From Bacteroides faecichinchillae JCM 17102 (GTDB taxonomy: Bacteria > Bacteroidota > Bacteroidia > Bacteroidales > Bacteroidaceae), in NCBI RefSeq assembly GCF_000614145.1, contig NZ_BAKK01000005.1, positions 62,001 to 126,000 of the forward strand: a stretch of DNA of 64,000 nucleotides, given 5' to 3'. The first letter of the stretch is position 1. Each line of letters starts with the position of its first letter. The notes under the pieces were generated by a model. It was not told the origin of the DNA. It saw only the letters and a list, made by a program, of their open reading frames with translations, and did not search any database. A program made the position numbers and the translations under genes. Shown in pieces: positions 39,838 to 56,175 of the stretch.

Positions 39838-39880
39838 AATGACTATGCAGAGAAATAATATCTGCATAGTCATTTTCTAT
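39838..39880 (+). terminator. Intrinsic terminator after frr
   Basis: Perfect 14-bp stem (39838-39851 with 39861-39874) with a 9-nt loop, then TTCTATTTT. It separates frr from rsgA, which starts at 39902. Confidence 0.88.
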
Positions 39881-39901
39881 TTTCCATTATCCACTAAATA
39901 A

Positions 39902-40834
39902 ATGAAAGGATTAGTAATCAAGAATACAGGTAGTTGGTATCAAGTAAAGACCGACGGCGGACAATTTATCGAATGTAAAATCAAAGGGAATTTCCGGTTA
40001 AAAGGTATCCGCAGCACTAATCCTGTAGCGGTAGGTGACCGTGTTCAAATTATATTAAACCAAGAAGGGACTGCTTTTATTAGTGAAATAGAGGATAGAA
40101 AAAACTATATTATCCGCCGTTCCTCTAACCTTTCCAAACAGTCTCATATTCTTGCCGCCAACCTTGATCAATGTATGCTGATAGTAACGGTCAATTATCC
40201 TGAAACTTCTACTATTTTCATTGACCGTTTTCTTGCATCCGCTGAAGCATATCGTGTACCTGTCAAGTTGATATTTAATAAAGTAGATGCTTACGATGAA
40301 GATGAATTACGTTATTTGGATGCACTTATCAACTTGTATACTAATATCGGATATCCTTGCTTTAAAGTTTCTGCAAAAGATGGAATCGGAATAGATGCAA
40401 TAAAAGAGGAACTGGAAGGTAAGATTACTCTTTTCTCCGGACATTCCGGAGTTGGTAAATCAACTCTTATCAATGCTATCCTACCAGGTATAGAAACAAA
40501 AACCGGTGAAATCTCAACCTATCATAATAAAGGGATGCATACTACTACCTTCTCTGAAATGTTCCCTGTTCCGGGAGATGGGTATATCATTGATACGCCG
40601 GGAATCAAAGGATTCGGAACTTTCGATATGGAAGAAGAAGAAGTGAGTCATTACTTTCCGGAAATTTTTAAGGTTTCTGCAGACTGTAAATATGGAAATT
40701 GTACACATCGGCATGAACCGGGATGTGCTGTACGTAAGGCGGTGGAGGAACATCTTATCAGTGAGTCACGATATACTTCTTATCTGAATATGTTGGAGGA
40801 TAAGGAGGAGGGAAAGTATAGGGCGGCGTACTAA
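39902..40834 (+). CDS. rsgA: Ribosome small-subunit-dependent GTPase A
   Basis: 310 aa. The order of motifs shows a circularly permuted GTPase: an OB-fold N-domain (about 1-70), then G4 ([11 protein letters not shown]), G5-like VSAKDG, G1/P-loop [16 protein letters not shown], switch KTGEIST...GMHTTT, and G3 DTPGIKGFG. The zinc knuckle [14 protein letters not shown] is near the C-terminus. It assists late maturation of the 30S subunit and is stimulated by ribosomes. The start directly follows the frr terminator with no obvious own promoter, so some readthrough or an unrecognised promoter must supply transcription. Confidence 0.96.
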
Positions 40835-40903
40835 GAAATACACATTCGTTTCACAAAGAAACTAACTGCCTAGTAAATTTTCTAAAGTTTTATAAAAAAA
40901 ATC

Positions 40904-40935
40904 ACCCTCAGTACTAATTGTAAAGAGGGTAATCT
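40904..40935. terminator. Hairpin between rsgA and the PKD-like gene
   Basis: ACCCTC (40904-40909) pairs with GAGGGT (40925-40930), with partial pairing of the flanking AAANAT/ATCTTT; T or A runs flank both sides, so it may serve both convergent genes. Confidence 0.6.
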
Positions 40936-40959
40936 TTATAAATTAAATTTCTCTATTTT

Positions 40960-42570
40960 TTAATAATAAGCAGGAGCTTGTGCTGAGGTATTATATTTGA
41001 TACATTTTATTTTACCTAAATTCTTCTGTGTCCAAAGAATGAGAGACGGATCATTCAAATAATATTTTGCATTAGTTGCTTTAATAGCATGAAATGTTCC
41101 ATCTGCAAGTCCAACTCCTAAATGAACACCAGAAATACAAGTACCATCTATAGCTACAATTGGACTATCAAATGTATATATCTCTTGCACTTTTTCTTTA
41201 GAGTCATTTATTGCAGTATAATCATAAAGATAAAGTTTATTTTCCTTTGCTATAAATAAATAAGGATGCATTGATGAATCAAATCCATTAGAATACCACA
41301 TCAATGACATAATACCATCAGCCATATTATCAGTGAAACCAGTCAGCTCTCCACGAACACAATTGTCCACATAGAAAATTCCAGTATTATAATCACTATC
41401 AACAGAAAATTGCTGATAATAATAACGATTATCTTTCTTTAAAATGGTAAAATATCGTTTAATACTCCCCCATGCATCACGATAAAATCCACAAAAGATC
41501 ATTTTATAATCTCCCAAATTATCCAATGGAACAAAATTCTCCGGCCATTCACCTGATCCAGATTCTAAAACAGATATCTGCCCAAGATTATTATCTCCAT
41601 AATAAGAATCTTTCCAATCCGAGATAGTCAGAAAGCAATTTCTTTCTTGATCAAACAACAAACAAAAATTATCCGATAAATCACCAGGAATTATCTTAAT
41701 TCCAGATAATTCTTTACCTTTATCATCTTTCATAGGAGCCGCTAAGAATTGGTTGGAATGATACAATTCATTAGTACTTTTCTTACGTCGATAAACTTTA
41801 CCCTCCTGATCTGTTACGATATCAAACCATTGCATGAACATCACATCAGAGATTTCTGGCATTCCAGCCATAAACATGTCTTTGGAACCTCTTATCACTT
41901 CCTTAAAAGTATAAGCATTCACATCTATCAATTCATGTTTACCAACAATCATGAATTGAGTATTATAAGATGGATAATTATTATCTTTACGAAAATGCTC
42001 ATGTATCTTAAAATATTCAGCTTCCGGCTTTAATGTTTCTCCATTTTCCTTCTGATAAAGTCCTAATAACGGCTCATATTCCGTATCTACATCGTTGCCA
42101 TAATAACTACCTCTTATAAAGTTGAAGTAAGAAATACCATCTTTCTCATTTAAAATTAAAAATCCACTATCTCTATAAGGATCTGTAATATTCACAGAGA
42201 AATTAAATAAGAAATGGTTCTCAGTATCTAGATCTTCAATATCCAGTCGTACATATCCACCACCAACTTCTTCAGTCAACCAATTCAACTGTTCTTCCTG
42301 ACCTATCACTTCATCTTTATAAATCCATGTATAAGCAAGATTCATCTTGCTTTTTTCCTTAGTAAACGAAAGAATCGGACGAATTTTCAAAACAGTACCT
42401 ACAGGCACCTCCCAAGAACCAGATTCTGTTTCTTCTCCATCTACATCTCTAACAAAAGTCACTCCAGAAACTTGAAGCAAATCATTATAATCATAATTTC
42501 CTTTGTCTTCATAGCAACTCGCCAAGCAACAGCCTAAAAAAGGCAACAATAATAATATTTTGTATTTCAT
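40960..42570 (-). CDS. PKD-like family lipoprotein of a SusCD system
   Basis: 536 aa. Lipoprotein signal ending LASC (Cys19), followed by YEDKGNYDYND, the usual opening of PKD-like lipoproteins. Residues about 30-135 look like a PKD/Ig-type domain (VPVGTVLKIRPILSFTKEKSK; FLFNFSVNITDPYRDSGFLILNE). The remainder (about 140-536) is a strand-rich, probably propeller-shaped domain. It is the last gene of the eight-gene unit, 23 bp after the DUF4843 gene. From memory, the equivalent position in the B. thetaiotaomicron BT2261-BT2264 peptide importer is a surface lipoprotein that packs on SusCD. Confidence 0.8.
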   Translation of the reverse strand: MKYKILLLLPFLGCCLASCYEDKGNYDYNDLLQVSGVTFVRDVDGEETESGSWEVPVGTVLKIRPILSFTKEKSKMNLAYTWIYKDEVIGQEEQLNWLTEEVGGGYVRLDIEDLDTENHFLFNFSVNITDPYRDSGFLILNEKDGISYFNFIRGSYYGNDVDTEYEPLLGLYQKENGETLKPEAEYFKIHEHFRKDNNYPSYNTQFMIVGKHELIDVNAYTFKEVIRGSKDMFMAGMPEISDVMFMQWFDIVTDQEGKVYRRKKSTNELYHSNQFLAAPMKDDKGKELSGIKIIPGDLSDNFCLLFDQERNCFLTISDWKDSYYGDNNLGQISVLESGSGEWPENFVPLDNLGDYKMIFCGFYRDAWGSIKRYFTILKKDNRYYYQQFSVDSDYNTGIFYVDNCVRGELTGFTDNMADGIMSLMWYSNGFDSSMHPYLFIAKENKLYLYDYTAINDSKEKVQEIYTFDSPIVAIDGTCISGVHLGVGLADGTFHAIKATNAKYYLNDPSLILWTQKNLGKIKCIKYNTSAQAPAYY

Positions 42571-42593
42571 AAATTCATTTTTTACAAATTCAT

Positions 42594-43310
42594 CTATTTA
42601 TCCAAAATTGGAACTTCCAATAACTCATTAGTATCAGGATCTCTCCAATCATATATTCTAATATCATCCTTAAATTTGAGTGCTAATACCGACTTTTCAT
42701 CAGCAGTCATTTCAGATAGATCAAGCACCTCACCATCACAAGATTCAATAAAACGTTGATATTTGAATTCACTCCATTCTCCTAAATAATTTTGAATAAT
42801 ATCATCATCCCACCAATCAGGCTTACTCATCTTATTACTAAAAGTAACAGTTGCAGTAATTGCCTTCTCATTCATTTTCTCTCCTAAATATTCTGCCAAT
42901 CCGAAAGTTTCATTTGGTACCAAACGCACCGTCAGATTCACTACTTCCGTATCTAAATGTGCTGTTTTATTCACAGTAACTTTCAATTGATCTGAAAACT
43001 TTCCTGCATGAAAGATTTGTTGCTTGTCTACAGTGTAATCAGCTACATCAGCAGTAGTCTCGTCTTCTACCACTTCCACTCCATAAGTTTTATCTTCTTC
43101 TAAAACCAATCCAGCCAATTTTACATCAAAAAACAAATCATAAGATTGTACATCATCCGAATGATGTTTAAATGTAAATGTTAACTGATTTACGCCATCC
43201 TCATTAGGTATATAGAGATAGCGTGCATTTGCATCATACATTTGTACCCCTTCTTTTGTGCATGCACTCAAAGAAAAAAGGATTATACTTAAATATAAAT
43301 ATTTATTCAT
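42594..43310 (-). CDS. DUF4843 lipoprotein of a SusCD system
   Basis: 238 aa. Lipoprotein signal ending LSAC (Cys17). The body contains two Calx-beta-like Ig domains: YLYIPNEDGVNQLTFTFKHHSDDVQSYDLFFDVKLAGL and HLDTEVVNLTVRLVPNETFGL, then the family's C-terminal WWDDDIIQNYLGEWSEFKYQRF segment. DUF4843 proteins are encoded right after SusD in such systems. Probably surface exposed; 20 bp after susD. Confidence 0.85.
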   Translation of the reverse strand: MNKYLYLSIILFSLSACTKEGVQMYDANARYLYIPNEDGVNQLTFTFKHHSDDVQSYDLFFDVKLAGLVLEEDKTYGVEVVEDETTADVADYTVDKQQIFHAGKFSDQLKVTVNKTAHLDTEVVNLTVRLVPNETFGLAEYLGEKMNEKAITATVTFSNKMSKPDWWDDDIIQNYLGEWSEFKYQRFIESCDGEVLDLSEMTADEKSVLALKFKDDIRIYDWRDPDTNELLEVPILDK

Positions 43311-43331
43311 TCTATTAATAATAAACTATTT

Positions 43332-44771
43332 CTATAAATCTTCACTATCTGGACGCGGGAAAACAAAGCTATCGTCCGATTGCATTTTCTTAGGCAAATG
43401 ATTAAATTTCTTATAATAAAAGAATAATTGTCCTTCAGTTAAATATTCCCGATGTACTTCTTTTATTATTTCACTTTCTATATCATCAGTTAGCATTCCA
43501 GGAGGACAACTATAGCCTGAGCGGAATTCATCCAATTCAGATTTTGCATTTTCAATATCTTTCAAACTATTATAATATTCAGCCCGAATATAGTACATTT
43601 CTCCTAAACGTATCATTGGAATCATATCTTTTACAAATGTAGCATAAGTTCCTCCAACTTCTACATTTCTAAGACAGAATAATTTACGAGACTCTAGTTT
43701 GACTAACTTAGCATTCCCTCTCATATCAATAGGTGAATCAAACAAATCGGTCGTATTTCTTTCGGCTAGAACTAATTGATCACTAGTGGAAACATAATAT
43801 GATTTGTAATTTGTCCACAAATCCCGATTAGACAAAGAAAAAATTAGTTCATCATATAATTTTATATTTCCATCACTTAATCCACTTAAAGAAGTAGGTT
43901 CAAAAATAAGAGTTCCATAACTATCACCAGTTGCCTCGATAACTATTGAAGCCTCATCAAACGCTTCTTTATGCATACCTGCATAGTTATAAACCCTAGC
44001 TAACAATGCGCAAATTGCAAAATAATTCATCCGATAACCACGATAGGCCAAAAATAGATTAGTTCGTCCTCCGCCAGCTCTAACGTCATTCTCAAAGCGA
44101 TATCGTGTAAGCATCCACTTAAGATCAGCTGTATCAAATGGTCCTACTAAATCTTTAGCTCTTTTTAAATCGGCAATTGCTTTTTTCAACACCTCATTAT
44201 TAGTTGTATAAGGCTGAAATGTGCAAGGGTAAGTATCAACATAAGGAATATACGATTTACCATCATCCTTCTTCATCGAAGGAGCGAAAAGACGAAGAAT
44301 ATCAAAATGCAAATAAGCACGTAAAGCCAAAGCCTCTCCTTCAATCAAATTCTTTTCTGTCTCCCCTTCTTCAAAAAGACTAGCAGACTCCGTTTCAATA
44401 CGTTGAATTATATTGTTACAGTTCGCTATACTATTATACGCCTTTTCCCAGATCGCTTCCACTAATGGTTTCACACGATTGTCCGTGTATTTATAATTAG
44501 CCGAAGCATAATAAGCAGTACCTAAAAAGCTAGAACTGTAAGTTTGTCCTAGAACATCCAAAAGCCCCCAAGTTAACTGCTGTCCATATAAGTCCGTTTC
44601 CGACATCTGCTGATATATACCATTCAATGCAATACGATAACCATCTCCTGTCTTGAACAAATCAGTTTCCGTCGTTGTATCTGTTGGCTCCAAGTCCAGC
44701 CAATTGCAAGAACTTAATCCTAGCAATATGCTCAAAGCTATAAAAAGTTTATATAAATTCATTCTCTTCAT
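43332..44771 (-). CDS. SusD/RagB-family lipoprotein, peptide-importer type
   Basis: 479 aa. Lipoprotein signal ending LSSC (Cys22), then NWLDLEPTDTTTETDLFKTGDGYRIALNGIYQQMS, a standard SusD opening, and TPR-like helices (LIEGEALALRAYLHFDILRLFAPS). The C-terminus has PMIRLGEMYYIRAEYYNSLKDIENAK and EVHREYLTEGQLFFYYKKFNHLP. This is the shorter SusD type found with DUF4843 and PKD-like lipoproteins. Gaps to neighbours are 6 and 20 bp. Together with SusC it forms a lidded outer-membrane importer. Confidence 0.92.
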   Translation of the reverse strand: MKRMNLYKLFIALSILLGLSSCNWLDLEPTDTTTETDLFKTGDGYRIALNGIYQQMSETDLYGQQLTWGLLDVLGQTYSSSFLGTAYYASANYKYTDNRVKPLVEAIWEKAYNSIANCNNIIQRIETESASLFEEGETEKNLIEGEALALRAYLHFDILRLFAPSMKKDDGKSYIPYVDTYPCTFQPYTTNNEVLKKAIADLKRAKDLVGPFDTADLKWMLTRYRFENDVRAGGGRTNLFLAYRGYRMNYFAICALLARVYNYAGMHKEAFDEASIVIEATGDSYGTLIFEPTSLSGLSDGNIKLYDELIFSLSNRDLWTNYKSYYVSTSDQLVLAERNTTDLFDSPIDMRGNAKLVKLESRKLFCLRNVEVGGTYATFVKDMIPMIRLGEMYYIRAEYYNSLKDIENAKSELDEFRSGYSCPPGMLTDDIESEIIKEVHREYLTEGQLFFYYKKFNHLPKKMQSDDSFVFPRPDSEDL

Positions 44772-44777
44772 AATTTT

Positions 44778-47700
44778 TTAGAAACTTGCTTTTAATGAGA
44801 AATTAATTGTTCGGGAATACGGATAACTCAATCCTCTCTCTAATTCAACTGACGACCAACGTGCCAATTCATTTGCACCAATACTAAAGCGAAGCATACT
44901 TAATCCCAGTGGTTTAACTAATTTTGAATCAAAATCATATTCCAATGTAACAGAATTGATATTCATCCAATTATAGTCTTGGACAAAACGAGATGTAGCT
45001 TTAGTAGTCGTAACACCGCCTGTACCATGCACTATCTGAATTTTTTCATATGCAGATAAATCACCTGGTTCTTTCCAACGATCAGTCAGCACACGTCTAT
45101 CTACATTATAGTTCAAGATATCCACACCTTCCACTTTGTCTGCCAAAGTTCTATTATAACGTTGCCCACCAAATTCATACATAAATGTAGTGTAAAGCGT
45201 AAAATGTTTCCATGTCAGGTTAAATCCAAACGTACCTTGCGCTTTCGGTTCTTCATTACCGACCACTACCTGATTCGCAGAATTCCAATATTTAGTAATT
45301 GTCCCATCAGGATTGCGGAAAAGTTCTTCACCTGTTGCAGGATCAATACCTATAGATTGCATAGCCCAAATAGCTGATTGTGAAACACCCTCCGCATACT
45401 TTTTATAACTTTTAGAACCAGCTTGAGAAACACTCTGCTTGTTGTCATTCAAAAAATCATCAACTTTATCATTATATGCCTTCAAACTTTCAGCTATTTT
45501 CACTATACGATTTTTATTATGTGCTAAATTACCGAACAAAGAGAGATTCCAATCACGTGTACGAAGTATATTAGCGCGTACATCCAACTCAAAACCTTTA
45601 TTCTCAATTTCACCAATATTATCAATGTATGTAGTAAACCCAGAATGGCTTGGAATAGTGACTGAATTTATACAATCTACAGTTCTTTTAATATAGTAAC
45701 TACCTTTTAAATAAATCAACTGCTGAAATAGACCTATTTCAAGTCCCATATCCAATGTATTAGTTGTTTCCCAAGTCAAAGCTTTATTACCTAAAGCATA
45801 CAACACAGCACCATACCCTGATTTATACCATTGATCAGTAAGAATGCGGTAAGTAGTTTTAGCATCATATGAAGCAAAATTCACCTTACCTACTTGTCCA
45901 TAACTTGCACGAACCTTTAATAAATCGAAAACACTCAAATCTCTAAAAAATTCGTAGTTATGAATATTCAAACCAGCACCAAAACTCCAAAATGGAGCAA
46001 ACTTGTTATCTGAACCGAATTTAGACGAACCATCAAGACGGGCACTAGCATCAAACAAATAAATATTATCATAACTATAATTCACCATTCCCAAGAAACC
46101 CATCAAACGAGAATGTTGTTCAGATTGAGATGGTTTACCCACAACCGTTTGAGCATAGTTAGGTGAGCTCAAACTACCTGATGGAAATCCCTCATATCTA
46201 GCACTAAGGCTCTTCGATTTATTTTCCATAATATTCATACCTAAAGATGTATTAATATTATGTCTACCAATAAAACGATTGTAAGCTAACGAAGCCTGCC
46301 AGTCAATCGTAAAACTATTTCCAGAGCCAGCAGTCAATTCACCAGAAGAAAGATTCGAGCTACTCAATAATTTTGAGTTTTTACGAGAATGAGGATCAAG
46401 AAATCTATCACTACTTTCAAATTGACGAGTAAGTCCTAATGTGCTTTTAAACAATAAATATTTAGAAATATTCCACTGAGCACTAAAATTATTAATCACT
46501 TGTTCATACGAACTCCTAGTATAGCTTCCTAAGGTAGCCTCATATAATGGATTATAACGATTACTTTTTTCACCCCAATATGCTAGTTCTTCCAAATATT
46601 CTCCATTTTCATTCCGATACACATCATACGGCAATTGACTAGTGTAATCAGAGAAAGATCCGTATGGAGAATCAACTGAAGAGTTTGAATTATACGTAAA
46701 ATGATTACGGAATATAAAATTCCCTACCGCATACTGAATATAAGCTCCTCCTCCCCAAACATCACGTTTAGAGCCCTTCATTACACCATTGTTCCTGTTC
46801 ATGTTCAACTCTACCCCGAAACGTAGATTGTCTGACCCCCCATCAACATAAAGACTATGTGTCATATTAAATGAAGTACGCAACGGTTTACTTAACCAGT
46901 AAGAATCTACTCCATTGTTTACATTATAAAGTTTTTTATAATAATATTCCCAATTGCTATTTGCGGACTCATATTCACCATTTGGATCTTCAAATGCCCC
47001 AGCTAGTCTTTCGGCCTCCAGCTTTTCTGATGCATTCAACAGATGGTAATCACTTAAATCAGGCATCTCGATCTCTCCAGTCAAACTGTAAGCTACATTC
47101 AGTTTACCTGGTTTTGGGGTAACGGTAGTTATGACAACCACACCATTTGCTGCACGCGAACCATATATAGCAGTTGCAGCAGCATCTTTCAGTATGGTAA
47201 CACTTTCAATACGCGAAGGGTCCATATCATATAGCTTAGTCACACTAATCTCAAAACCATCCATAATAAATGTTGGAAGATTAGGATTATTCTGCAAATT
47301 AGACTTTGAAGTCACACTTTCTGCATCCAATTCCTTCACACCAATTCCTGATTTACCACGAATATACACTTCAGGTACTGCATTCGGGTCAGATCCCCAT
47401 GTCGTATTTTCTGCAATACGGAAAGACGGATCGAAGGCTTGAAGAGCAGAAATTACATTAGTCTTGGAAACTTTCTGCAATTCGTCTCTTTTAATTGTCA
47501 CCGTATTTCCAGTAAAACTCTCTTTCTTTAAATTAGCATATCCCGTCACAACTACTTCATTGATCTCATTCGTATCTTCCTTCATACGGACCTGAAGATC
47601 TTTCTTTTGATTTGCTTTTACTGTAATTTCTTGAGGTGCCATACCGATATAAGAAAATTTCAATATAACATCCTCACGTGGAGCACTAATTTTAAAATTA

Positions 47701-47924
47701 CCATCAATATCACAGACAGTCCCACCCTGGAAACCTTTGACAACAACATTCACTCCTGGCAAAGAGTGTCCGTCTAAATCAGTAACCTTACCCTTAATGA
47801 TACGGTTACTTTCATGTTCTACCTTAACAGTCACCGTAGTTGTTTGTGCACTTACAGGACAAGTGCACACCAATAGGGAGGCTGCTAAGCAACAACCAAC
47901 AACAAAATTTCGCTTTTCTCTCAT
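44778..47924 (-). CDS. SusC/RagA TonB-dependent outer membrane transporter, peptide-importer type
   Basis: 1048 aa, frame intact. Signal peptide to about 26, a carboxypeptidase-like domain (about 42-118, IKGKVTDLDGHSLPGVNVVVKG), TonB-box-like INEVVVTGYANLKKES, plug (about 130-260, with DGFEISVTKLYDMDPSRIESVTILKDAAAT and ANGVVVITT) and a barrel ending TINFSLKASF. The closest experimentally studied relative I recall is the SusC of BT2261-BT2264, solved with bound peptides, so oligopeptide import is the best guess. It follows the ABC permease gene by 50 bp on the same strand. Confidence 0.93.
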   Translation of the reverse strand: MREKRNFVVGCCLAASLLVCTCPVSAQTTTVTVKVEHESNRIIKGKVTDLDGHSLPGVNVVVKGFQGGTVCDIDGNFKISAPREDVILKFSYIGMAPQEITVKANQKKDLQVRMKEDTNEINEVVVTGYANLKKESFTGNTVTIKRDELQKVSKTNVISALQAFDPSFRIAENTTWGSDPNAVPEVYIRGKSGIGVKELDAESVTSKSNLQNNPNLPTFIMDGFEISVTKLYDMDPSRIESVTILKDAAATAIYGSRAANGVVVITTVTPKPGKLNVAYSLTGEIEMPDLSDYHLLNASEKLEAERLAGAFEDPNGEYESANSNWEYYYKKLYNVNNGVDSYWLSKPLRTSFNMTHSLYVDGGSDNLRFGVELNMNRNNGVMKGSKRDVWGGGAYIQYAVGNFIFRNHFTYNSNSSVDSPYGSFSDYTSQLPYDVYRNENGEYLEELAYWGEKSNRYNPLYEATLGSYTRSSYEQVINNFSAQWNISKYLLFKSTLGLTRQFESSDRFLDPHSRKNSKLLSSSNLSSGELTAGSGNSFTIDWQASLAYNRFIGRHNINTSLGMNIMENKSKSLSARYEGFPSGSLSSPNYAQTVVGKPSQSEQHSRLMGFLGMVNYSYDNIYLFDASARLDGSSKFGSDNKFAPFWSFGAGLNIHNYEFFRDLSVFDLLKVRASYGQVGKVNFASYDAKTTYRILTDQWYKSGYGAVLYALGNKALTWETTNTLDMGLEIGLFQQLIYLKGSYYIKRTVDCINSVTIPSHSGFTTYIDNIGEIENKGFELDVRANILRTRDWNLSLFGNLAHNKNRIVKIAESLKAYNDKVDDFLNDNKQSVSQAGSKSYKKYAEGVSQSAIWAMQSIGIDPATGEELFRNPDGTITKYWNSANQVVVGNEEPKAQGTFGFNLTWKHFTLYTTFMYEFGGQRYNRTLADKVEGVDILNYNVDRRVLTDRWKEPGDLSAYEKIQIVHGTGGVTTTKATSRFVQDYNWMNINSVTLEYDFDSKLVKPLGLSMLRFSIGANELARWSSVELERGLSYPYSRTINFSLKASF

Positions 47925-47974
47925 AAATACAGTGTTTAGTTATATACTGTTATCCAACAAATCTTATATTCTAA

Positions 47975-50317
47975 TTATTTTTTACGACGACGCCACCAAG
48001 TAATAATATAGCCTGCTAACAAGCCTACAGGAATTAGTCCCATGAAAATGATCTGAACCCAAATCAAAGCCCCTTGTCCAATAGACATTTTATCATCAGC
48101 AGGATGTGGACGACTATCATCCACTGGAAATTCACCATGAGAAAGTTCACGGAATACCTCACTAATTAAAGTAAAATTTGATGTACTTATATCATCTCTA
48201 CTGGTAGTTAGTTCACTATTAGCCATGCAATCCGCATCTCCACAAACATAAATACGTTGTTCTTTATCACCAACTTGACGAGTCAAGCGAGTAATCAAAG
48301 GAATAGAATCATTTTTTTCACCAGTCTCCATATTAATTGTTGGATAATCATCCACAAAATCTGTAGTCTGTAGTTCATTCCATGCTTTTGAAGAAGTAGC
48401 AAACAGAACAGTTGATTTAAATCCGCAACTATCATTAACCTGAAACTCTACAGCACCTGGCATTGAAAGTTTTGATCCATATCTCGACATACGACGAAAA
48501 TCACTATTCTCTTTTATTGCTGTTTCTGTAGGATCCAAGAACAACTGATTAGGAGCATATCCTTTCGTTTCTTCTACTACCGTTCCAGGCAAAAAGGTAA
48601 TACCTAAACTCTCAACTAACGGATTCATCAATGGTTGACGGCGAGGCTCACAAGCAATTATCATATCACCTCCACGAGCTAAAAAGCGCTGCACTTTAGC
48701 TATTTCTTCTGGAGTATACGCTTCACGTACGTCTGCTATTACTAAAACATCAATATCTTTAGAAATTTCAGTAGCTGCAGTATCCGCCCTCAAATCCAAG
48801 GTACTTACCCTAAATCCCTGATTAATCAAAGAATGACGAAAAGTTCTGTTCTTAGCAAAAGCGCTATAATCACGTTCACCTCCTTTGTAAATATCACGTT
48901 CACCATGTCCCGTTACAAATGCAACCATAGGAGGAGTTACAACCATTGTCTTTAAAGCAGAAGTTATTTGAGCTTCAAAAGGATCTCGCTGATTATCATC
49001 ATAAATACGCAAGAAGGCTTTTTGCCCGTTTTCACGTTCAAACAAATATACAAAACTATTGTATTCCTCTTCCAAGTTTATTCCTTTAGAAAGTGTCTGT
49101 TTTTTTATCTCTTCTGGAGAAAGAAACATATCAAAGTCATAATCATACGTATCACATAGACGTTGTGCAATTTCCTTATCCGTCATTCCTGGATATTGAG
49201 CATAAAGTCGAGAATTATTATATGCATGATCATAATAGTAGACATATTTCATCTTCATTTCAGGCTTGAAACGAATATAGTCTTCAAACTTACGCATTTC
49301 CCAATTTCTACTACTAGGCATTCCCTTACCAAAATTATCATCCAAAAGATTCACATAAGTAGTTAAAGTCAATCCACCATCGAGTTTTTTCACTACTTCT
49401 TGACTTGGAGGAGTCAATGTATTTGCTTTTGTAGCTGTCGCATCATAATAATACATCAATTTTGGACGTGAAGTAGTATAACCTAATAATAAAGTTACAC
49501 AAATCACACCCACATACTGAGATACTTTACTAAGTCTACTTGTGCTCGTACGTTCGAATTTTAATTTTAAAATAGAAAGAGACAAGAATAATGCAATTAC
49601 AATAATAAAATAGAATAAATCCTCAGTACAAATCATTCCTTTCAAGAATTTATCCGAGCGTCCTGCTAAAGCCAACCAATAAGTTAAATCACGAACAAAA
49701 TCAATATCCTGTCCAACAGAATTCATAAAGTTTAATATAGCAAGAACAGTTAAAGTTCCCACAGCAGCTACTACTTGATAAGCTGTCAATGTAGACATAA
49801 ACAACCCAATAGCTGCATACGCACATACTAACAAGAAAATCCCCAAGACTCCAGTAAAAGCTAGCTGATAATCGAAATTCTCAATAATACATGCTGAATA
49901 AATAAAATAAGCAAATAAAATAATTACCAGAATTAACGCATAAACTAACATAGATACATATTTACCTATGATAATTTGTGTATTTGTAATAGGAGAAGAA
50001 TATAATAGTTTAATTGAACCACTACTATACTCTTTACTCATAAGCCCCATTGTAAGTAACGGAATATAGAGATATAAATTATTCTGCATATCAGAGTAAA
50101 CACCACTGTATCCTACAAGCAGTTTTGCAGTCAAATTATAAGGACGATAATTTAACGCCAAATAACGCAATTGATCCGCAATCAAATCGGAATATGTGAG
50201 TCCGGCCTGAAATGCAAAGATTATAAGAATTAACCATGCAATAGGTGAACAGAAGAGTGTATTCAATTCAGCCTTTGCTATTTTCCATATAGTTTTCATA
50301 CTTATTTCTATTTTCAA
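47975..50317 (-). CDS. Fused ABC-2 permease/GldG-type protein, copy 1
   Basis: 780 aa. Residues about 1-260 form an ABC-2 permease with six membrane helices, including MGLMSKEYSSGSIKLLYSSPITNTQIIIGKY, the coupling region of GldF-like permeases. Residues about 275-735 are an extracytoplasmic GldG/ABC_transp_aux domain (KLDGGLTLTTYVNLLDDNFGKGMP; VAFVTGHGERDIYKGGERDYSAF; YVCGDADCMANSELTTSRDD). A last helix and WWRRRKK tail anchor it. Thus GldF and GldG are one polypeptide. Its ATPase is encoded 9 bp upstream. The signature of gliding itself is absent; this is likely a general Gld-like ABC system. Confidence 0.87.
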   Translation of the reverse strand: MKIEISMKTIWKIAKAELNTLFCSPIAWLILIIFAFQAGLTYSDLIADQLRYLALNYRPYNLTAKLLVGYSGVYSDMQNNLYLYIPLLTMGLMSKEYSSGSIKLLYSSPITNTQIIIGKYVSMLVYALILVIILFAYFIYSACIIENFDYQLAFTGVLGIFLLVCAYAAIGLFMSTLTAYQVVAAVGTLTVLAILNFMNSVGQDIDFVRDLTYWLALAGRSDKFLKGMICTEDLFYFIIVIALFLSLSILKLKFERTSTSRLSKVSQYVGVICVTLLLGYTTSRPKLMYYYDATATKANTLTPPSQEVVKKLDGGLTLTTYVNLLDDNFGKGMPSSRNWEMRKFEDYIRFKPEMKMKYVYYYDHAYNNSRLYAQYPGMTDKEIAQRLCDTYDYDFDMFLSPEEIKKQTLSKGINLEEEYNSFVYLFERENGQKAFLRIYDDNQRDPFEAQITSALKTMVVTPPMVAFVTGHGERDIYKGGERDYSAFAKNRTFRHSLINQGFRVSTLDLRADTAATEISKDIDVLVIADVREAYTPEEIAKVQRFLARGGDMIIACEPRRQPLMNPLVESLGITFLPGTVVEETKGYAPNQLFLDPTETAIKENSDFRRMSRYGSKLSMPGAVEFQVNDSCGFKSTVLFATSSKAWNELQTTDFVDDYPTINMETGEKNDSIPLITRLTRQVGDKEQRIYVCGDADCMANSELTTSRDDISTSNFTLISEVFRELSHGEFPVDDSRPHPADDKMSIGQGALIWVQIIFMGLIPVGLLAGYIITWWRRRKK

Positions 50318-50326
50318 AGTTTATGA

Positions 50327-51250
50327 TTACTTCTTTCCAGAAAGACGAGCAAAAATCTCATCTAAAGAAAGACGTTCTAACTGAATCTCCTCTATTTGCC
50401 AACCTTTAGCAACACTAATAGCAATCATTTTCTCAGTAATGTCCTTCGGGTCTGTAAAATGGAAACGATAATGATGATCACCCAGATCATCTACTTTAGT
50501 AATTCCTTCTAATGTTGCCAATACATCATTAGTAGGAGCATTACCCAAAGTAGCAGTAAAAGAAGTCGGAGCCACATAATTATCAAAATCATCTATAGTT
50601 CCAGAAAACACTACCTTACCCTGCTCAATCATACGGATTTCATCACAAGTAGCCTGTACTTCAGGTAAAATATGTGTAGATAACATTACTGCATGATCGA
50701 CAGCTAACTCTTTGATCAGATTACGAATCTCAACAATCTGATTCGGATCCAAACCATTAGTAGGTTCATCTAATACCACAAACTTAGGATGATGTACAAT
50801 AGCCTGTGCAATACCAATACGTTGTTGATAACCACCTGACAAATTACCAAGCAGCCGAGAACGGAAGTGAGTGACCCCACAACGATCCATTGCACGCTCT
50901 ACAGCTTTCCCAACCTCTCCTGTTTCCATCAAATGAAGATTAGCACAATAAGTTAGATACTCTTCAACAGTCATATCAGGATATAAAGGAGGACGCTGAG
51001 GCAAAAATCCAATGAACTTTTTTGCTTCTACAGGATTTTCACGTAAGTTGATATTATTGATCCAAACATTCCCTTCTGTCTGATTCAAAACACCACATAT
51101 TATGTTCATAGTAGTAGACTTTCCGGCACCGTTAGATCCTAACAACCCAAAAACTCCTTTACTTTTTACTTCAAAATTTATATCGCGAATAGCCCAATCT
51201 ACACTATAACGATGCGACAGGTGCTCTACTCTAACAATTACTTCTTCCAT
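50327..51250 (-). CDS. ABC transporter ATPase (GldA-like), copy 1
   Basis: 307 aa. Walker A GSNGAGKST (about 38-46), Q-loop in GFLPQRPPLYPDMTVEEYL, signature LSGGYQQR, Walker B FVVLDEPTNGLDP and H-loop STH. The C-terminal 80 residues (FTATLGNAPTNDVLATLEG ...) are the accessory domain of GldA/CcmA-type exporters. It drives the fused permease encoded 9 bp downstream. It is a close paralogue of the ATPase at 53598-54536, being identical over long core stretches such as PTNGLDPNQIVEIRNLIKE. Confidence 0.93.
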   Translation of the reverse strand: MEEVIVRVEHLSHRYSVDWAIRDINFEVKSKGVFGLLGSNGAGKSTTMNIICGVLNQTEGNVWINNINLRENPVEAKKFIGFLPQRPPLYPDMTVEEYLTYCANLHLMETGEVGKAVERAMDRCGVTHFRSRLLGNLSGGYQQRIGIAQAIVHHPKFVVLDEPTNGLDPNQIVEIRNLIKELAVDHAVMLSTHILPEVQATCDEIRMIEQGKVVFSGTIDDFDNYVAPTSFTATLGNAPTNDVLATLEGITKVDDLGDHHYRFHFTDPKDITEKMIAISVAKGWQIEEIQLERLSLDEIFARLSGKK

Positions 51251-51281
51251 TATATATTTGTATTTTTAATAGAATATACAT

Positions 51282-53576
51282 TTATCTTCTCTTTCTACGA
51301 GCTAAAATAGTAATTCCGATAGCTGCCAATACGACCGGCATGATCCCATACCACCCATATCTCACCAACTTACGTGCATCACGACTAATATACACTTCAT
51401 TGTCTTTTGGATTAGGGCGCTCTGTATCCAATGGATACTCATCATAAGAAAGCCATTTAAATGTCCCAGTTACTATTGTAAAATTAGTAGATGCATATCC
51501 ATTACGACTTTTACTCATCTCGCCATTACTTACACAATCTGCATCTCCCGCAATCACAATACGTTGTTCTTTATCACCAACTTTACGATCAAGAGCAAGC
51601 ACTGTAGGAATTACTCCTTGTTTTTCTCCTGTTTCTGGGTTGTATTGAGGGATATCATCCAAAAAGTCTGTTGTTTGTAATTCGTTCCAAGATAAAGAGT
51701 CTGTCACAATAATCGGCATGACATTATAACCTTTAGAAACATCAAAAGATAATCCAGTAGCATCTGGCATTGTTACAGTATAACCAAATTCATAAGGACG
51801 TGTATATGGTTTAAAGCGTTCAGCCGCGTCTTTAGTGATATGCCCAATAATTAATGAAGGAGAATCGTTTTCTTTTATTTCAATCAATGTTCCCGGCATA
51901 AAAGTTACTCCAAATTGTTCCACAATAGGATTCATAATATCTTGCCGACGTGCATCACCTAAAATAAAGAGATTACCTCCACGAGCTATATATTTGTTCA
52001 AGCGTTCTTGCTCAACCTCAATAAAAGGAGTTTTTACTTCACTAATAACTACAATGTCAATATCTTCCGGCATATCATCTTTCGCCAAATCTAAAGTAAC
52101 AACATCAAACCCTTGAGTTAACAACGAATGACGAAAATATTGATTTTCAGCAAATCGATTATAGTCACGATCACCTGTTTTATGAATATTACGCATATCA
52201 TGACCTACGAGGAAAGCAACCTTTGGAGACTTTACCACAAAACGTTTGAACGCAGCTGAAATTTCTGTTTCTGATGGATGTTTCTCTGTATCATCGAATA
52301 AACGCAAAATGCTTTTTTGACCATTTTCGCGTTCTACTACACGTATGAAGCGATTACCTTCTGAAGCTAAATCTATTCTTTCTTTTATTTCGTCCGGAGT
52401 TAAAAACATCTTAAGATCTAAATCCAATATATTGGCCATCTTTTTAGCCCGCTCTTCTATAGTCTTACAACCTTCCAAACGGAAATCAAGCTGAGAATTC
52501 GCTTCATCATAATAATAAACATAATCCATTTCTAAATCCGGTTTGAAACGAATATACCGTTCAAATCTTTCGCGATCAGATTTTAATTGACTTGGCAAAC
52601 CAATACCATAATTGTCATCCAGTAGATTGACATAACTAGTAATCTTAAGTTTCCCATCCAACTTATTCATTATATCTTGGCTCACCTGTGTCAATGTATT
52701 ACGACCAGTAGCAGTGGCATCATAGTATAATTTCATTGAAGGTAATGTTGAGACATAACCAATCAATAAAGCCACTACAACAACTACACCATAAGTTCCC
52801 CAAGTTTTTGCATAAGATATTTTACTACGTCCTGCACGAAGTCGCAATACAGAAAGTGTTAGGAAAAACACTATAATTAATAAAAAATAGAGCAAGTCTT
52901 CACTACAAATCATCCCACCGATAAATTCATAGGCCCGACCAGAAATAGAAAGCCAATAAGTAATATCACGTACAAAAGCATAATCCTGTCCAATATCTCC
53001 AACATAATTTAGAGCAGCTAATACAGCCAATGTCCCCATTGCTGCCACTACTTGATAAGAGGTTATACTAGACATGAACAAACCAATTGCACCATAAGCA
53101 CAAATCAATAAATATATTCCTAAAATACCAGTAAATAATAATCCCAGATCAGGATTCTTTATAAATATACTACAAAAAATTCCTATTAAAAATAAAGGAA
53201 GTATCAATACCAAATTATAAATAAGAACTGATATATATTTACCCAATATAATTTGGCTATTAGTCACTGGAGATGAAAATAATAACTTAATAGAGCCACT
53301 ACTATATTCGCGACTCATCAATCCCATAGTCAATAAAGGAATATACAGATAAAGATTACGCAAAAATCCTGGAAAAATTCCCATCCAGCCGGTAAAGATT
53401 GAGGCAGTCACATCCCAAAGGCCATGGCCTAATGCCTGTCCTAATACCTGACGGTCAAAAGCATTTCCAAATGCCACACCTACCTGTACAGCAAAAATAA
53501 CTAAAATAAGCCATGCTACTGGAGAGCAAAACAAAGAACGCAGTTCGGCAATGGCTATCCGATATGTAGTTTTCAT
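51282..53576 (-). CDS. Fused ABC-2 permease/GldG-type protein, copy 2
   Basis: 764 aa, the same architecture as the 47975-50317 product: an N-terminal six-helix ABC-2 permease (MGLMSREYSSGSIKLLFSSPVTNSQIILGKY) and a long extracytoplasmic GldG-type domain (KLDGKLKITSYVNLLDDNYGIGLPS; VAFLVGHDMRNIHKTGDRDYNRF; VIAGDADCVSNGEMSKSRNGYASTNF), then a C-terminal helix and ILARRKRR. The two copies have diverged most in the middle of the GldG part, suggesting different partners or substrates. Gaps are 21 bp after its ATPase and 31 bp before the next ATPase. Confidence 0.87.
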   Translation of the reverse strand: MKTTYRIAIAELRSLFCSPVAWLILVIFAVQVGVAFGNAFDRQVLGQALGHGLWDVTASIFTGWMGIFPGFLRNLYLYIPLLTMGLMSREYSSGSIKLLFSSPVTNSQIILGKYISVLIYNLVLILPLFLIGIFCSIFIKNPDLGLLFTGILGIYLLICAYGAIGLFMSSITSYQVVAAMGTLAVLAALNYVGDIGQDYAFVRDITYWLSISGRAYEFIGGMICSEDLLYFLLIIVFFLTLSVLRLRAGRSKISYAKTWGTYGVVVVVALLIGYVSTLPSMKLYYDATATGRNTLTQVSQDIMNKLDGKLKITSYVNLLDDNYGIGLPSQLKSDRERFERYIRFKPDLEMDYVYYYDEANSQLDFRLEGCKTIEERAKKMANILDLDLKMFLTPDEIKERIDLASEGNRFIRVVERENGQKSILRLFDDTEKHPSETEISAAFKRFVVKSPKVAFLVGHDMRNIHKTGDRDYNRFAENQYFRHSLLTQGFDVVTLDLAKDDMPEDIDIVVISEVKTPFIEVEQERLNKYIARGGNLFILGDARRQDIMNPIVEQFGVTFMPGTLIEIKENDSPSLIIGHITKDAAERFKPYTRPYEFGYTVTMPDATGLSFDVSKGYNVMPIIVTDSLSWNELQTTDFLDDIPQYNPETGEKQGVIPTVLALDRKVGDKEQRIVIAGDADCVSNGEMSKSRNGYASTNFTIVTGTFKWLSYDEYPLDTERPNPKDNEVYISRDARKLVRYGWYGIMPVVLAAIGITILARRKRR

Positions 53577-53597
53577 GTAAATGTTTGAATTATATGA

Positions 53598-54536
53598 TTA
53601 ATCGATTTTGATTCCCTTGCCAGACAATTGTGCAAAAACAGTATCTAATGAATCGCGCTCGAGAATAATCTCACTGGGACGCCACCCTTTTTCTACTCCC
53701 ATTTCAGTGAAACGGCGTGTCATGAAATGGTCATTCCCATCAAAGTGGAACCGGAAACGAGTTGTTGTCAGTTTCTCGACTTTTAAAATACCTTCAATCT
53801 TCTCAAATTCTTCTACTATAGGCGGATTCTCAAATATAGCAACAAAAGTACTAGGTGCCATGTAATTATTAAAATCACGGATAGTACCAGAGAATACTAC
53901 TGTTCCATGTTCGATCATCTTTATCTCATCACAAGTGGCTTGTACTTCAGAAAGAATATGAGTAGACAACATGACTGCACGATCAACAGCAATTTCCTTA
54001 ATCAAATTGCGAATTTCTACAATCTGATTCGGGTCAAGTCCGTTAGTCGGCTCATCTAATACGACAAACAACGGATTGTGTACAATTGCCTGAGCTATAC
54101 CCACACGCTGTTGATATCCTCCGGACAAATTACTAATAAGACGTTTACTAAAGTGCATGATACCACACTTTTCTTTCGCAAAGTCTACAGCTGCTCTGAT
54201 ACTTTTTGGTTCCATCCGGCGGAGTTGCGCACAATAAACCAAATATTCGTCTACCGTAAAATCAGAATACAAAGGCGGTTTTTGAGGAAGAAAACCGATG
54301 TATTTCTTAGCTTCCACCGGATTTTCTCTCAAGCTGATGCCATTTATAAAAACTTCACCCTCTGTCTGATTCAATACTCCACACATGATGTTCATAGTAG
54401 TCGACTTCCCTGCACCATTGGAGCCCAACAGACCAAAAACACCTTTTTTCTTGATTTCAAGATTAATGTCCCGAATAGCCCATTGTACGCTGTAACGATG
54501 TGAAAGGTGTTCTACCCTCACAATAGATTCATTCAT
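53598..54536 (-). CDS. ABC transporter ATPase (GldA-like), copy 2, first gene of the eight-gene unit
   Basis: 312 aa. Walker A GSNGAGKST, Q-loop GFLPQKPPLYSDFTVDEYL, signature LSGGYQQR, Walker B VVLDEPTNGLDP, H-loop STH; C-terminal accessory domain ending SGKGIKID. Paralogue of the 50327-51250 product. All eight genes from here to 40960 run on the minus strand with gaps of 6-50 bp, so a single transcript of about 13.6 kb is likely, though no consensus promoter is visible upstream. Confidence 0.93.
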   Translation of the reverse strand: MNESIVRVEHLSHRYSVQWAIRDINLEIKKKGVFGLLGSNGAGKSTTMNIMCGVLNQTEGEVFINGISLRENPVEAKKYIGFLPQKPPLYSDFTVDEYLVYCAQLRRMEPKSIRAAVDFAKEKCGIMHFSKRLISNLSGGYQQRVGIAQAIVHNPLFVVLDEPTNGLDPNQIVEIRNLIKEIAVDRAVMLSTHILSEVQATCDEIKMIEHGTVVFSGTIRDFNNYMAPSTFVAIFENPPIVEEFEKIEGILKVEKLTTTRFRFHFDGNDHFMTRRFTEMGVEKGWRPSEIILERDSLDTVFAQLSGKGIKID

Positions 54537-55089
54537 AACACTTGTTAATAAGTTAAATATCTTATAAATACATTAAAACACAGAATTGATATATTAGGCT
54601 ATTATAAATAAAGAATGTGTATTTTAACTTTGTGTCGTTCTTGTTTATAAATCCCTAAAAAACTCCGCGAAATTATAAACCTTTATAATTATACGCAAAT
54701 TTTTCAGGTTTTAGTTTTATATGCACTTTTTTTTCAAAAACTTAATAAGTAACATATAGTCAGCAATATATATAATAAATAGACAGTTTACACCAGACAA
54801 CGCATCAAATAAACTCAATTCTCCCAATATTTAATTTCTAAAAGTCAAAAAGTTGCATTTGAAACTTTAACTTTTATTAATCCTTAAGCTAGAATTTGTC
54901 TTTTTTAGCAAATTTAACAAAAAAGGTAAACACCTAATGAACAAAAAGAGAGATACTATCTTTTAAACACATTTAGTCTGTTTCTTAAATTACTTAACTA
55001 AATTATATCTTCCTTCCCCATTAAACCTTTGGTGCCTGTTATTGTCTAACTGAAAAGAATAAAAACATATCTATTACGATACTAAAACC
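54537..55089. other. Divergent intergenic region between the ABC unit and the RND operon
   Basis: 553 bp of very A+T-rich DNA between diverging operons. I searched for TAnnTTTG in both directions and found no convincing case; ACCTTTG at 55026-55032 is a one-mismatch candidate for the RND operon. No gene, repeat array or strong hairpin seen. Confidence 0.6.
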
Positions 55090-56175
55090 ATGAATAAAAA
55101 GACAAAATGGGGCATAATTATCTTAGTAAGTGCCGGAATTATCGGTGGAGGGATCTACTCTCAATTACCAAAAACGAACGATGAATTGGCTGCTGCCGAC
55201 AAAGTGCTGAGCAACAACAAAAAGAATGGAAAAAAAATTCTGAATGTTAATGCTAAGATCATAAAACCACAACTATTAACTGACGGATTTCCAACCATTG
55301 GTTTACTCAAACCTGACGAGGAGGTAGATTTATCTTTTGAAACATCCGGAAAAGTAATTGAAATAAACTTTGAAGAAGGAACAGCTGTAAAAAAAGGGCA
55401 GCTTCTTGCTAAAGTTAATGATCGTCCATTGCAAGCACAATTACAAAGATTACTTGCTCAATTAAAGTTGGCAGAAGATCGTGTGTTTCGCCAAGATGCC
55501 TTATTAAAGCGGGATGCGGTCAGTAAAGAGGCTTATGAACAAGTAAAAACAGACTTAGCCACCCTCAATGCTGATATAGAAATAGTGAAAGCAAACATTG
55601 CATTAACAGAACTGCATGCTCCTTTCGACGGAATAATTGGTCTTCGACAAATCAGTGTCGGATCATATGCCTCGCCAACCACAGTGGTTGCTAAGCTAAC
55701 TAAAATAGCTCCACTAAAAGTTGAGTTTTCTGTACCGGAACGTTACGCTACACAAATAAAAAAAGGTACCAATCTTACTTTTAAGGTTGAAGGGAAGCTA
55801 GATGCATTCAATGCGCAAGTGTATGCGGTTGAATCCGCCATTGATCCTGATCTGCATCAGTTTACCGCCCGCGCGCTCTATCCGAACACTAATCGCGCAT
55901 TACTTCCCGGTCGTTATGCTAACATCTTATTAAAAAAGGAAGAAATACCTAATGCCATTGCTATCCCGACAGAAGCTATCCAACCGGAAATGGGTAAGGA
56001 TAAAGTGTTCTTATATAAATCCGGCAAAGTTGAACCAGTAGAAGTGACGACAGGAATCCGTAATGAATCCGAAGTACAAATTATCCGGGGATTACAAGTT
56101 GGAGACACCATCATTACTTCCGGAATCTTGCAACTTCGTCTGGGCTTGCCCGTCACTTTGGATAACATTGACTAA
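55090..56175 (+). CDS. RND efflux periplasmic adaptor (membrane fusion protein)
   Basis: 361 aa. N-terminal membrane anchor (WGIIILVSAGIIGGGIYSQL), then lipoyl half-motifs (VIEINFEEGTAVKKGQLLAKVNDRPLQAQL and ELHAPFDGIIGLRQISVGSYAS) around an alpha-hairpin with AQLKLAEDRVFRQDALLKRDAVSKEAYEQ. A beta-barrel and membrane-proximal domain (IPTEAIQPEMGKDKVFLYKSGKVEPVEV) follow. It bridges the RND pump to TolC. First gene of a three-gene operon, 12 bp before the pump gene. Confidence 0.95.
   Translation: MNKKTKWGIIILVSAGIIGGGIYSQLPKTNDELAAADKVLSNNKKNGKKILNVNAKIIKPQLLTDGFPTIGLLKPDEEVDLSFETSGKVIEINFEEGTAVKKGQLLAKVNDRPLQAQLQRLLAQLKLAEDRVFRQDALLKRDAVSKEAYEQVKTDLATLNADIEIVKANIALTELHAPFDGIIGLRQISVGSYASPTTVVAKLTKIAPLKVEFSVPERYATQIKKGTNLTFKVEGKLDAFNAQVYAVESAIDPDLHQFTARALYPNTNRALLPGRYANILLKKEEIPNAIAIPTEAIQPEMGKDKVFLYKSGKVEPVEVTTGIRNESEVQIIRGLQVGDTIITSGILQLRLGLPVTLDNID

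Follow-up and report, generated by a model that had tools for sequence, protein, structure and literature searches.

The SusCD/RagAB importers of Bacteroidota include RagAB, which takes up peptides, and BT1762-1763, which takes up levan. To our knowledge, the inner-membrane handling of the material imported by SusCD is known for only a few systems. In Bacteroides thetaiotaomicron, the BT2261-2264 complex is composed of SusC, SusD and two further lipoproteins. Among ABC transporters, the lantibiotic-immunity exporters (LanFEG) protect the membrane. The BT2261-2264 complex is reported to bind a peptide ligand (PMC7782687), and the role of the GldA/F/G-family ABC transporter of gliding bacteria is presented as unsettled in a second study (PMC7440613).

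We analyzed a 64,000-nt stretch of the Bacteroides faecichinchillae genome (the window), in which genes for both types of machinery stand side by side. Our literature search found no description of a system combining SusCD with a Gld-like ABC transporter. We propose that the eight genes constitute a single operon whose products function together as one two-membrane system, in which SusCD imports a proteinaceous substrate and a dedicated ABC transporter acts on this substrate or its fragments (probability of roughly 0.45).

Gene content and candidate promoter

Eight minus-strand open reading frames cover positions 40960-54536 (Table 1). Together with the domain matches, they confirm the order reported in the earlier note (ATPase, permease, ATPase, permease, SusC, SusD, DUF4843, PKD) and its gaps of 6-50 bp: in the order of transcription, these measure 21, 31, 9, 50, 6, 21 and 23 bp, SusC and SusD adjoining at 6 bp. 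Permease 2 is listed with a TTG start at 50317, and the start of permease 1 lines up with an ATG six codons downstream (50299), so that the gap between ATPase 2 and permease 2 is probably 27 bp rather than 9 bp. The hydropathy profile of permease 1 presents an N-terminal set of transmembrane segments and a single C-terminal segment, and its GldG-like domain (approximately residues 285-735) is probably periplasmic.

Table 1. Features of the eight-gene locus (positions in the window; scores in bits)
Feature	Position	Strand	Evidence
Candidate Bacteroides-type promoter	54668..54699	-	TTTG, 20 bp, TAATTTCG; one mismatch to TAnnTTTG
ATPase 1, GldA-like ABC ATPase	53598..54536	-	ABC_tran 106.5; TIGR03522 263.8 (cut-off 402.6)
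Permease 1, GldF-like membrane part fused to GldG/ABC_transp_aux domain	51282..53576	-	ABC2_membrane_2 48.0; ABC_transp_aux 81.1
ATPase 2, GldA-like	50327..51250	-	Profile matches; 69% identity with ATPase 1
Permease 2, fused ABC2_membrane_2 and ABC_transp_aux	47975..50317	-	Profile matches; 48% identity with permease 1
ABC/SusC junction	47925..47974	-	50 bp; no Bacteroides-type promoter match
SusC/RagA-type TonB-dependent transporter	44778..47924	-	TIGR04056 681.4 (cut-off 368.25); Pfam domains
SusD-like lid lipoprotein	43332..44771	-	SusD-like_3 52.2 (cut-off 27); SusD_RagB 27.5 (cut-off 23.1)
DUF4843 lipoprotein	42594..43310	-	DUF4843 107.7
PKD-like lipoprotein	40960..42570	-	PKD_2 79

The N-terminal STN domain was not matched in the window SusC using Pfam. 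The predicted model of the DUF4843 lipoprotein (pLDDT 89.5) contains a Calx-beta-like domain, and its whole-model fold matches have low TM-scores. That of the PKD-like lipoprotein (pLDDT 86.6) is largely beta, and its first fold matches are BT1487 and the cobalamin-binding lipoprotein BT2095 (TM-score of about 0.4). The Rfam search of positions 38000-57000 gave no match above the gathering score. None of the eight proteins has a Pfam match to a carbohydrate-active enzyme or glycoside hydrolase, and we therefore rejected a classification as a polysaccharide utilisation locus.

The candidate promoter precedes the first ATPase gene and was identified relative to TAnnTTTG, which we take to be the Bacteroides-type consensus. 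This sequence block is kept upstream of ATPase 1 in four other Bacteroides loci (L007, L008, L010 and L011), in an alignment where our ORF rule misplaced the starts of L009 and L011 and where L015 was too diverged. The earlier note had pointed to the ABC/SusC junction as the place where a promoter or terminator might split the transcript; besides the missing Bacteroides-type promoter, no sigma-70-like or terminator-like site was found there among the matches listed, a list that excludes 18 weaker promoter matches. Part of these 50 bp is conserved across L007-L010. The eight genes are predicted to be co-transcribed as a single operon.

Distribution and linkage to SusC

The eight-gene order recurs in five other Bacteroides loci (L007-L011), among them that of B. 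faecis MAJ27 (L010), and also in L015, except that the second ATPase was not called there and an 811-bp gap is left for it. This repetition indicates that the arrangement is not a chance neighbourhood. The fused permease is rare in Bacteroides (5 of 99 genomes, including that of the window), and two of the five genomes bearing it (G053 and G082) present other gene arrangements. ABC transporters tied to SusCD occur with several gene arrangements, in taxa that include Bacteroidales, Flavobacterium, Chitinophaga and Pedobacter, and the profile search for the permease detected them in at least 55 of the 250 genomes searched within one order. One genome (G824) contains 12 fused permease copies (PF09822); since the profile search scored at most four candidates per genome, its values for prevalence and copy number are to be read as minima.

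We then measured the linkage of the fused permease to SusC across Bacteroidota. Of the 71 sampled loci, 68 have a co-directional SusC label no more than 8.8 kb away from the permease, and in all 68 the two are joined by an uninterrupted series of same-strand genes (the run) whose gaps do not exceed 450 bp. The SusC ORF reaches 400 aa in 66 of the 71 loci; the label corresponds to a 140-aa ORF in L113 and to a 220-aa piece in L163. Three loci (L161, L167 and L170) present ABC genes without SusC. In the named-genome set, SusC was in the locus in 70 of 75 cases and in an unbroken same-strand run in 67 of 75. A further 22 loci, which cover the fused copies still left in five genomes, are all linked by both measures (SusC ORF of at least 400 aa in 19). 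Counted by permease, 23 of 28 lie no more than 8.8 kb from SusC, and the five exceptions are second permeases, located further down runs in which the first permease qualifies. Several genes intervene in L240.

Because SusC matches per genome were scored only up to 38, SusC density was judged from arbitrary regions of the same genomes. Among 20 such places, picked by eye and not at random, SusC was within 8.8 kb in five and in the run in two. At true GldG loci, SusC was within 8.8 kb in 1 of 11 cases and never in the gene run (0/11). The linkage differs from these controls with P = 2e-10 and 1e-7 (Fisher test, relatedness ignored), and it persists through three gene orders. A SusC tree with 120 linked rows and 21 unlinked ones, the latter a small and non-random sample, requires only nine changes of linkage (SusC sequences under 850 aa were left out, except for paralogues, where the limit was 550 aa). 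The adjacency of the two halves, which the earlier note suggested searching for in other genomes, thus extends well outside Bacteroides, and the random association that the note named as a refutation fails. These comparisons of gene neighbourhoods provide good support for a functional coupling of SusCD and the ABC transporter.

Duplication of the ABC genes

Both the ATPases and the permeases of the window are duplicates, as their identities indicate (Table 1). In the permease tree (195 sequences kept, 186 distinct; permeases under 680 aa left out, and two split pieces of G437:C15 absent), the first permeases of the duplication seen in the window group in one clade of 12 rows (11 loci and the window) and the second permeases in a sister clade of the same size, neither with any single-copy member. 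Each clade has a support of 99, and their union just 60. The locus tree requires at least six changes between one and two permeases. According to these phylogenies, permeases 1 and 2 stem from a duplication and are passed on in matched pairs, which makes one heterodimeric transporter likelier than two separate machines. The earlier note had proposed two ABC machines; the permeases behave rather as partners, and many loci have two permeases and a single counted ATPase gene (22 of 38 loci with neighbouring permeases, two being counted in the other 16), although our ORF rule possibly undercounts ATPase genes. Paired permeases appeared associated with DUF4843/PKD (32/34 vs 10/97; 131 rows, all from loci with SusD in the run), but this link was rejected, as it disappeared once relatedness was allowed for (tree test with four supported pairs, median P = 0.5).

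Partner genes in related loci

Partner genes were counted in 70 of the 71 sampled loci. The run includes a gene for a protease of the M16, met-zincin, trypsin-like or M14 type in 43 of 70 loci and none in 27; these proteases are mostly M16 and probably periplasmic, and the HxxEH motif is kept in all 59 M16 proteins of at least 800 aa. MutS-like genes were found in 38 of 70 runs, FecR in 53 and sigma factors in 45, and some runs also contain TlpA-like thioredoxins. SusC is longer in loci with FecR (median of 1155 vs 1049 aa), as expected of a signalling domain, for which one tested SusC gave a weak match. The Mx1-like lipoproteins of relatives were rejected as metallohydrolases (HExxH kept in 0/22).

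The co-occurrence of proteases, ECF sigma/FecR pairs and MutS-like ATPases in relatives suggests peptides rather than glycans as the substrate. The window unit contains no protease, sigma factor or FecR gene, and a peptide substrate is suggested there through its relatives only. The loci of Butyricimonas and Sanguibacteroides with the same permease duplication present the order sigma-ABC-ABC-FecR-SusC, which suggests that an ancestral sigma factor and FecR may have been lost from the Bacteroides unit.

Proposed mechanism and alternatives

In the system that we propose, SusCD and the two lipoproteins would capture a proteinaceous substrate, which is predicted to enter the periplasm through SusCD with TonB energy. 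The dedicated ABC transporter, probably a heterodimer of permeases 1 and 2 powered by ATPases 1 and 2, would use its large GldG-like domain in the periplasm to act on the substrate, or on fragments of it, at the inner membrane. Both permease and ATPase are of exporter-type (ABC-2) families; by this analogy alone, we consider it likelier that the transporter extrudes material from the periplasmic face of the inner membrane, or hands it over there, than that it imports it into the cytoplasm. The substrate would be broken down in many relatives by M16 or other proteases, probably periplasmic, and sensed by an ECF sigma/FecR pair. The gene content, the linkage and the conserved pairing of the permeases are observed; we infer co-transcription, the substrate class, the heterodimer, the direction of transport and a contact between the two halves.

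Alternatively, the ABC transporter could carry peptides from the periplasm to the cytoplasm, forming one nutrient route through both membranes. Its large domain between transmembrane segments could serve as a receptor, and no other recurrent inner-membrane transporter was recognised in the runs; however, the exporter-type matches and the generic uptake that periplasmic proteases would permit speak against it, as does the lack of a recognised separate binding protein (most unlabelled genes of the runs lay outside both of these searches), and we consider such import unlikely. The ABC proteins could also serve SusCD itself by some mechanical or clearing activity, and not act on its substrate, given that their genes are nearly always found with SusC and that the GldG-like domain is probably periplasmic. 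However, most SusCD operons must lack ABC genes: the genome of the window has at least 38 SusC matches, and fused permeases were found solely at the window locus (one search scored four of six candidates). The same genome contains two more SusC-SusD-DUF4843-PKD operons, neither with ABC genes nearby, although one is at a contig end. This suggests a substrate-specific role rather than general upkeep. The few linkage changes on the SusC tree, for the unlinked sample used, also count against maintenance, which appears quite improbable.

It is less probable again that the system senses, imports and destroys harmful peptides, with the ABC transporter guarding the inner membrane like the lantibiotic-immunity exporters. 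The sigma/FecR and M16 genes and some TlpA-like thioredoxins of relatives are consistent with such a defence, and the lantibiotic-protection family ranks third for both window ATPases, far under its cut-off; but many ABC-2 ATPases could give the same ranking, no such peptide is known and the window unit lacks the protease, sigma and FecR genes. Finally, the two halves could be unrelated and neighbours by chance in Bacteroides, where the unit is rare and where the conserved stretch of the junction has no assigned role. We regard this as hardly credible, given the linkage found in several gene orders across Bacteroidota relative to two kinds of control.

The preferred reading, a SusCD importer working with a dedicated ABC transporter, may extend beyond the window. 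In many Bacteroidota, one cluster encodes both an outer-membrane importer and a gliding-type ABC transporter, and frequently proteases as well; this points to an unrecognised system of peptide handling that spans two membranes. More tentatively, these loci could represent a widespread and undescribed trans-envelope peptide route of Bacteroidota, formed by a SusCD importer together with an ABC transporter of Gld type, which would be a heterodimer in the lineage of the window, and in many lineages also by MutS-like ATPases and periplasmic proteases; the gliding GldA/F/G would then be related to a family that mainly partners an outer-membrane importer. A specific ABC transporter tied to SusCD would offer a concrete partner for an ABC family with a gliding member, and the linkage is a starting point for understanding how gut and soil bacteria take up peptides.

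Comparison with known systems

The window SusC and SusD score above the family cut-offs of SusCD/RagAB importers. The best PDB sequence matches of this SusC are other SusC homologues, RagA being third. The operon differs from these importers by its dedicated ABC transporter and by the absence of a glycoside hydrolase among the eight genes. The earlier note had seen a parallel with BT2261-BT2264, and both loci contain SusC, SusD and two further lipoproteins. Their equivalence found no support: BT_2264 is a weak match to the window SusC (ninth of 11 PDB matches, 89.7 vs 200.8 bits for the best), and neither lipoprotein retrieved the entries 5fq6-5fq8 of that complex, which are absent from the profile matches and from the 50 listed of 1602 and 1829 fold matches.

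The window transporter belongs to the same broad ABC families as GldA/GldF/GldG of gliding flavobacteria, with a GldF-like membrane part and a GldG-like domain, but differs by the fusion of the F and G parts and by its linkage to SusC. Membership in the gliding Gld system was rejected, as no curated cut-off is reached: the ATPases reach 279.5 and 263.8 bits for GldA (cut-off 402.6), the permeases 82.3 and 84.7 bits for GldF (cut-off 288.5), and permease 1 reaches 21.3 bits for GldG (cut-off 389.85), for which permease 2 has no match at E 0.001. The genome of the window has no match above the GldA cut-off (TIGR03522), and a separate true GldG coexists with the fused proteins in 11 of 12 genomes. 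Relative to FecI/FecR-regulated TonB receptors, FecR and sigma genes are common in the runs of relatives, whereas the window unit has neither. Finally, the ABC-2 class is common to the window transporter and LanFEG lantibiotic exporters, whose TIGR03740 cut-off (309.75) is above the 165.9 and 170.7 bits of the window ATPases; the window transporter differs from them by its large extra domain and its SusCD partner.

Association of the permease with SusC

The ABC and SusCD halves of the unit belong together, as the main idea of the earlier note held: SusC lies beside the fused GldF/GldG-like permease in 68 of 71 sampled loci (co-directional, ≤8.8 kb) and in several gene orders, although this sample is weighted to one order and shares some strains with our set of named genomes. 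The loci, mostly one per genome and excluding the window's own genome, come from separate samples, drawn because the named-genome scan, which searched with an alignment of the permease, retained best matches only. At phylum level at least 7 of 247 genomes carried the permease, at order level at least 5 of 247 and at genus level 5 of 99, each count including the window's own genome; in another order it occurred in at least 55 of 250. All 68 SusC genes stand in an unbroken same-strand run with the permease (gaps ≤450 bp), and L161, L167 and L170 are the loci without a co-directional SusC. The SusC ORF reaches 400 aa in 66 of the 71 loci; it is a 220-aa piece in L163, and in L113 the label falls on a 140-aa ORF, with a SusD that runs off the stretch.

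The named-genome scan yielded 75 loci, spanning Bacteroides, Butyricimonas, Sanguibacteroides, Dysgonomonas, Alistipes, Proteiniphilum, Chitinophaga, Pedobacter, Sphingobacterium, Pontibacter, Flavobacterium, Algibacter and others. SusC was co-directional in 70, and 67 loci have it in one unbroken run with the permease; the five without a co-directional SusC are three short contigs (L034, L043, L072), a locus with SusD at its edge (L016) and one with SusCD on the opposite strand (L081).

Around the central gene of 20 hand-chosen control regions, in 20 of these genomes, a co-directional SusC was present within 8.8 kb in 5 and in the gene's own run in 2. One true GldG over the curated cut-off was found in 11 of 12 genomes, with a co-directional SusC within 8.8 kb in 1/11 and in the gene run in 0/11 (in the single case, L221, an opposite-strand gene intervenes). 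The remaining fused copies of these genomes (PF09822 listing) form 22 loci, all with SusC by both measures. Fisher tests against the controls gave P values of 2e-10 and 1e-7, treating as independent loci that are not. The stronger argument is persistence through different arrangements: the ABC genes lie immediately 5' of SusC (window and Bacteroides loci L007-L011), between sigma and FecR (L012, L013, L060, L130, L135, L138, L143, L146, L243, L245) or, most commonly, after SusD or lipoproteins.

Gene unit and transcription

Pfam and NCBIfam concur on the eight genes and domains described earlier, including SusC and SusD as members of their respective families. The ABC half is a tandem duplication, since the ATPases are 69% and the permeases 48% identical.

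Coordinates of features in the window and in two loci of other genomes
Feature	Position	Strand	Remarks
Eight-gene unit	40960-54536	-	Eight ORFs, intergenic gaps 6-50 bp
Permease 2 start	50299	-	ATG, probable start rather than listed TTG 50317, as it aligns with the permease 1 start
Terminator-like stem	48025-48010		Within 3' end of permease 2 gene
ABC/SusC junction	47925-47974		Part conserved in L007-L010, without recognised promoter or terminator
Candidate Bacteroides-type promoter	54699-54668	-	TTTG, 20 bp, TAATTTCG; consensus match 5' of ATPase 1
Three-gene unit	55090-60572	+	Divergent from ATPase 1 (spacing 551-553 bp in window, L007, L008, L010); first gene an RND adaptor
Short MutS-like ATPase pair (domains III, V)	L046:12310-14990		In SusCD-ABC operons of many Bacteroidota (also L054, L117, L123-L125, others)
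Mx1-like lipoprotein	L026:7027-7938		With 21 similar lipoproteins; weak Peptidase_Mx1/TIGR04549 match; replaces DUF4843-PKD in some loci

The promoter candidate follows the Bacteroides-type consensus, with one mismatch to TAnnTTTG. By itself this match is weak, because the pattern has 22 minus-strand matches across the 64-kb window; its position and conservation favor it, as it sits in a block kept in L007, L008, L010 and L011 (upstream alignment). At the ABC/SusC junction, where a promoter or terminator would split the transcript according to the earlier note, there is no Bacteroides-type promoter match, and no sigma-70-like or terminator-like site is among the matches listed, which rank above 18 weaker promoter matches. 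The candidate before ATPase 1 and the lack of a listed site at the junction make co-transcription of the eight genes likely.

Paired permeases

A FastTree phylogeny of 186 permease rows groups paired permeases by position, with the first copies in one clade and the second copies in its sister. Both clades of the duplication seen in the window hold 12 rows and cover Bacteroides, Butyricimonas and Sanguibacteroides (support 99 each; 60 for their union). Other lineages show this pattern too, and the locus tree requires six or more switches between single and paired permeases. One ATPase gene was counted in 22 of the 38 loci with neighboring permeases and two in 16, with undercounting possible. 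The proposal of two ABC machines is thus not upheld. The two permeases more likely form one heterodimer: repeated origin and joint retention would be expected had a homodimer become an obligate heterodimer.

Partner genes and proposed function

Related loci also carry ECF sigma and FecR genes, met-zincins, an M16 peptidase of ~940 aa (the sampled member starts with a signal-like sequence) and paired MutS-like proteins of ~445 aa (domains III and V); a TlpA-like thioredoxin, a trypsin-like protease or an M14 carboxypeptidase is occasionally present. In 70 of the sampled loci, the labelled genes of the run included SusC (67), FecR (53), sigma (45), M16 (36), MutS-like a/b (34/32), DUF4843 (11), PKD (11), met-zincin (4) and Mx1-like (3), as well as TlpA-like (6), trypsin-like (2) and M14 (1) genes, these last three from less sensitive single-query searches; 43 of 70 runs included some protease. 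HxxEH is kept in 59/59 M16 sequences of at least 800 aa, and HExxH in 0/22 Mx1-like lipoproteins. A variant order, SusC-SusD-(~252 aa)-ATPase-permease-MutS-M16-permease, places the MutS-like and M16 genes between two permeases (L156-L159, L162, L163, L235, L236, L238, L247). In L012 and L013, which share the window's duplication, a sigma gene precedes the ABC genes and FecR follows them; both may therefore have been lost from the Bacteroides unit.

This mix of proteases, MutS-like proteins and sigma/FecR suggests a peptide or protein substrate, and the unit is probably a peptide-handling trans-envelope system built of known parts. The ABC genes seldom occur without SusC, whereas SusC usually occurs without them. 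General upkeep of the importer, also proposed earlier, fits less well than a substrate-specific role, because the own genome's two further SusC-SusD-DUF4843-PKD operons (L093 on contig C95, L094 on C141) lack ABC genes in the fetched stretches, that of L093 stopping at the contig end just before SusC. No fused permease outside this unit was found among the candidates scored in this draft assembly (144 contigs). In L094 a met-zincin gene lies two genes past PKD. The exporter-type family, a domain that is probably periplasmic and the signal-like starts of the proteases lead us to prefer that the transporter would act by extrusion from, or handover at, the inner membrane; import across that membrane would be the second choice.

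Comparison with known systems

No description of the permease-SusC linkage was found by title or abstract in a mostly open-access literature, subscription journals being largely outside its scope. Unlike GldA/F/G of gliding, the unit's ABC proteins fall below the curated cut-offs. The parallel drawn earlier with BT2261-BT2264 is not supported either: BT_2264 is a weak match to SusC, whose best PDB matches are 8aa4, 5t3r and RagA, and 5fq6-5fq8 are absent among the matches listed for the DUF4843 and PKD proteins. The first profile matches of these two are a DUF1735 protein and BT1487; their predicted models resemble, with low TM-scores, Calx-beta domains (DUF4843; pLDDT 89.5) and BT1487/BT2095 (PKD; pLDDT 86.6). 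Among the PDB matches listed for the permease profile, IFT52 proteins are the only natural relatives, aligning with about 65 positions in the second half.
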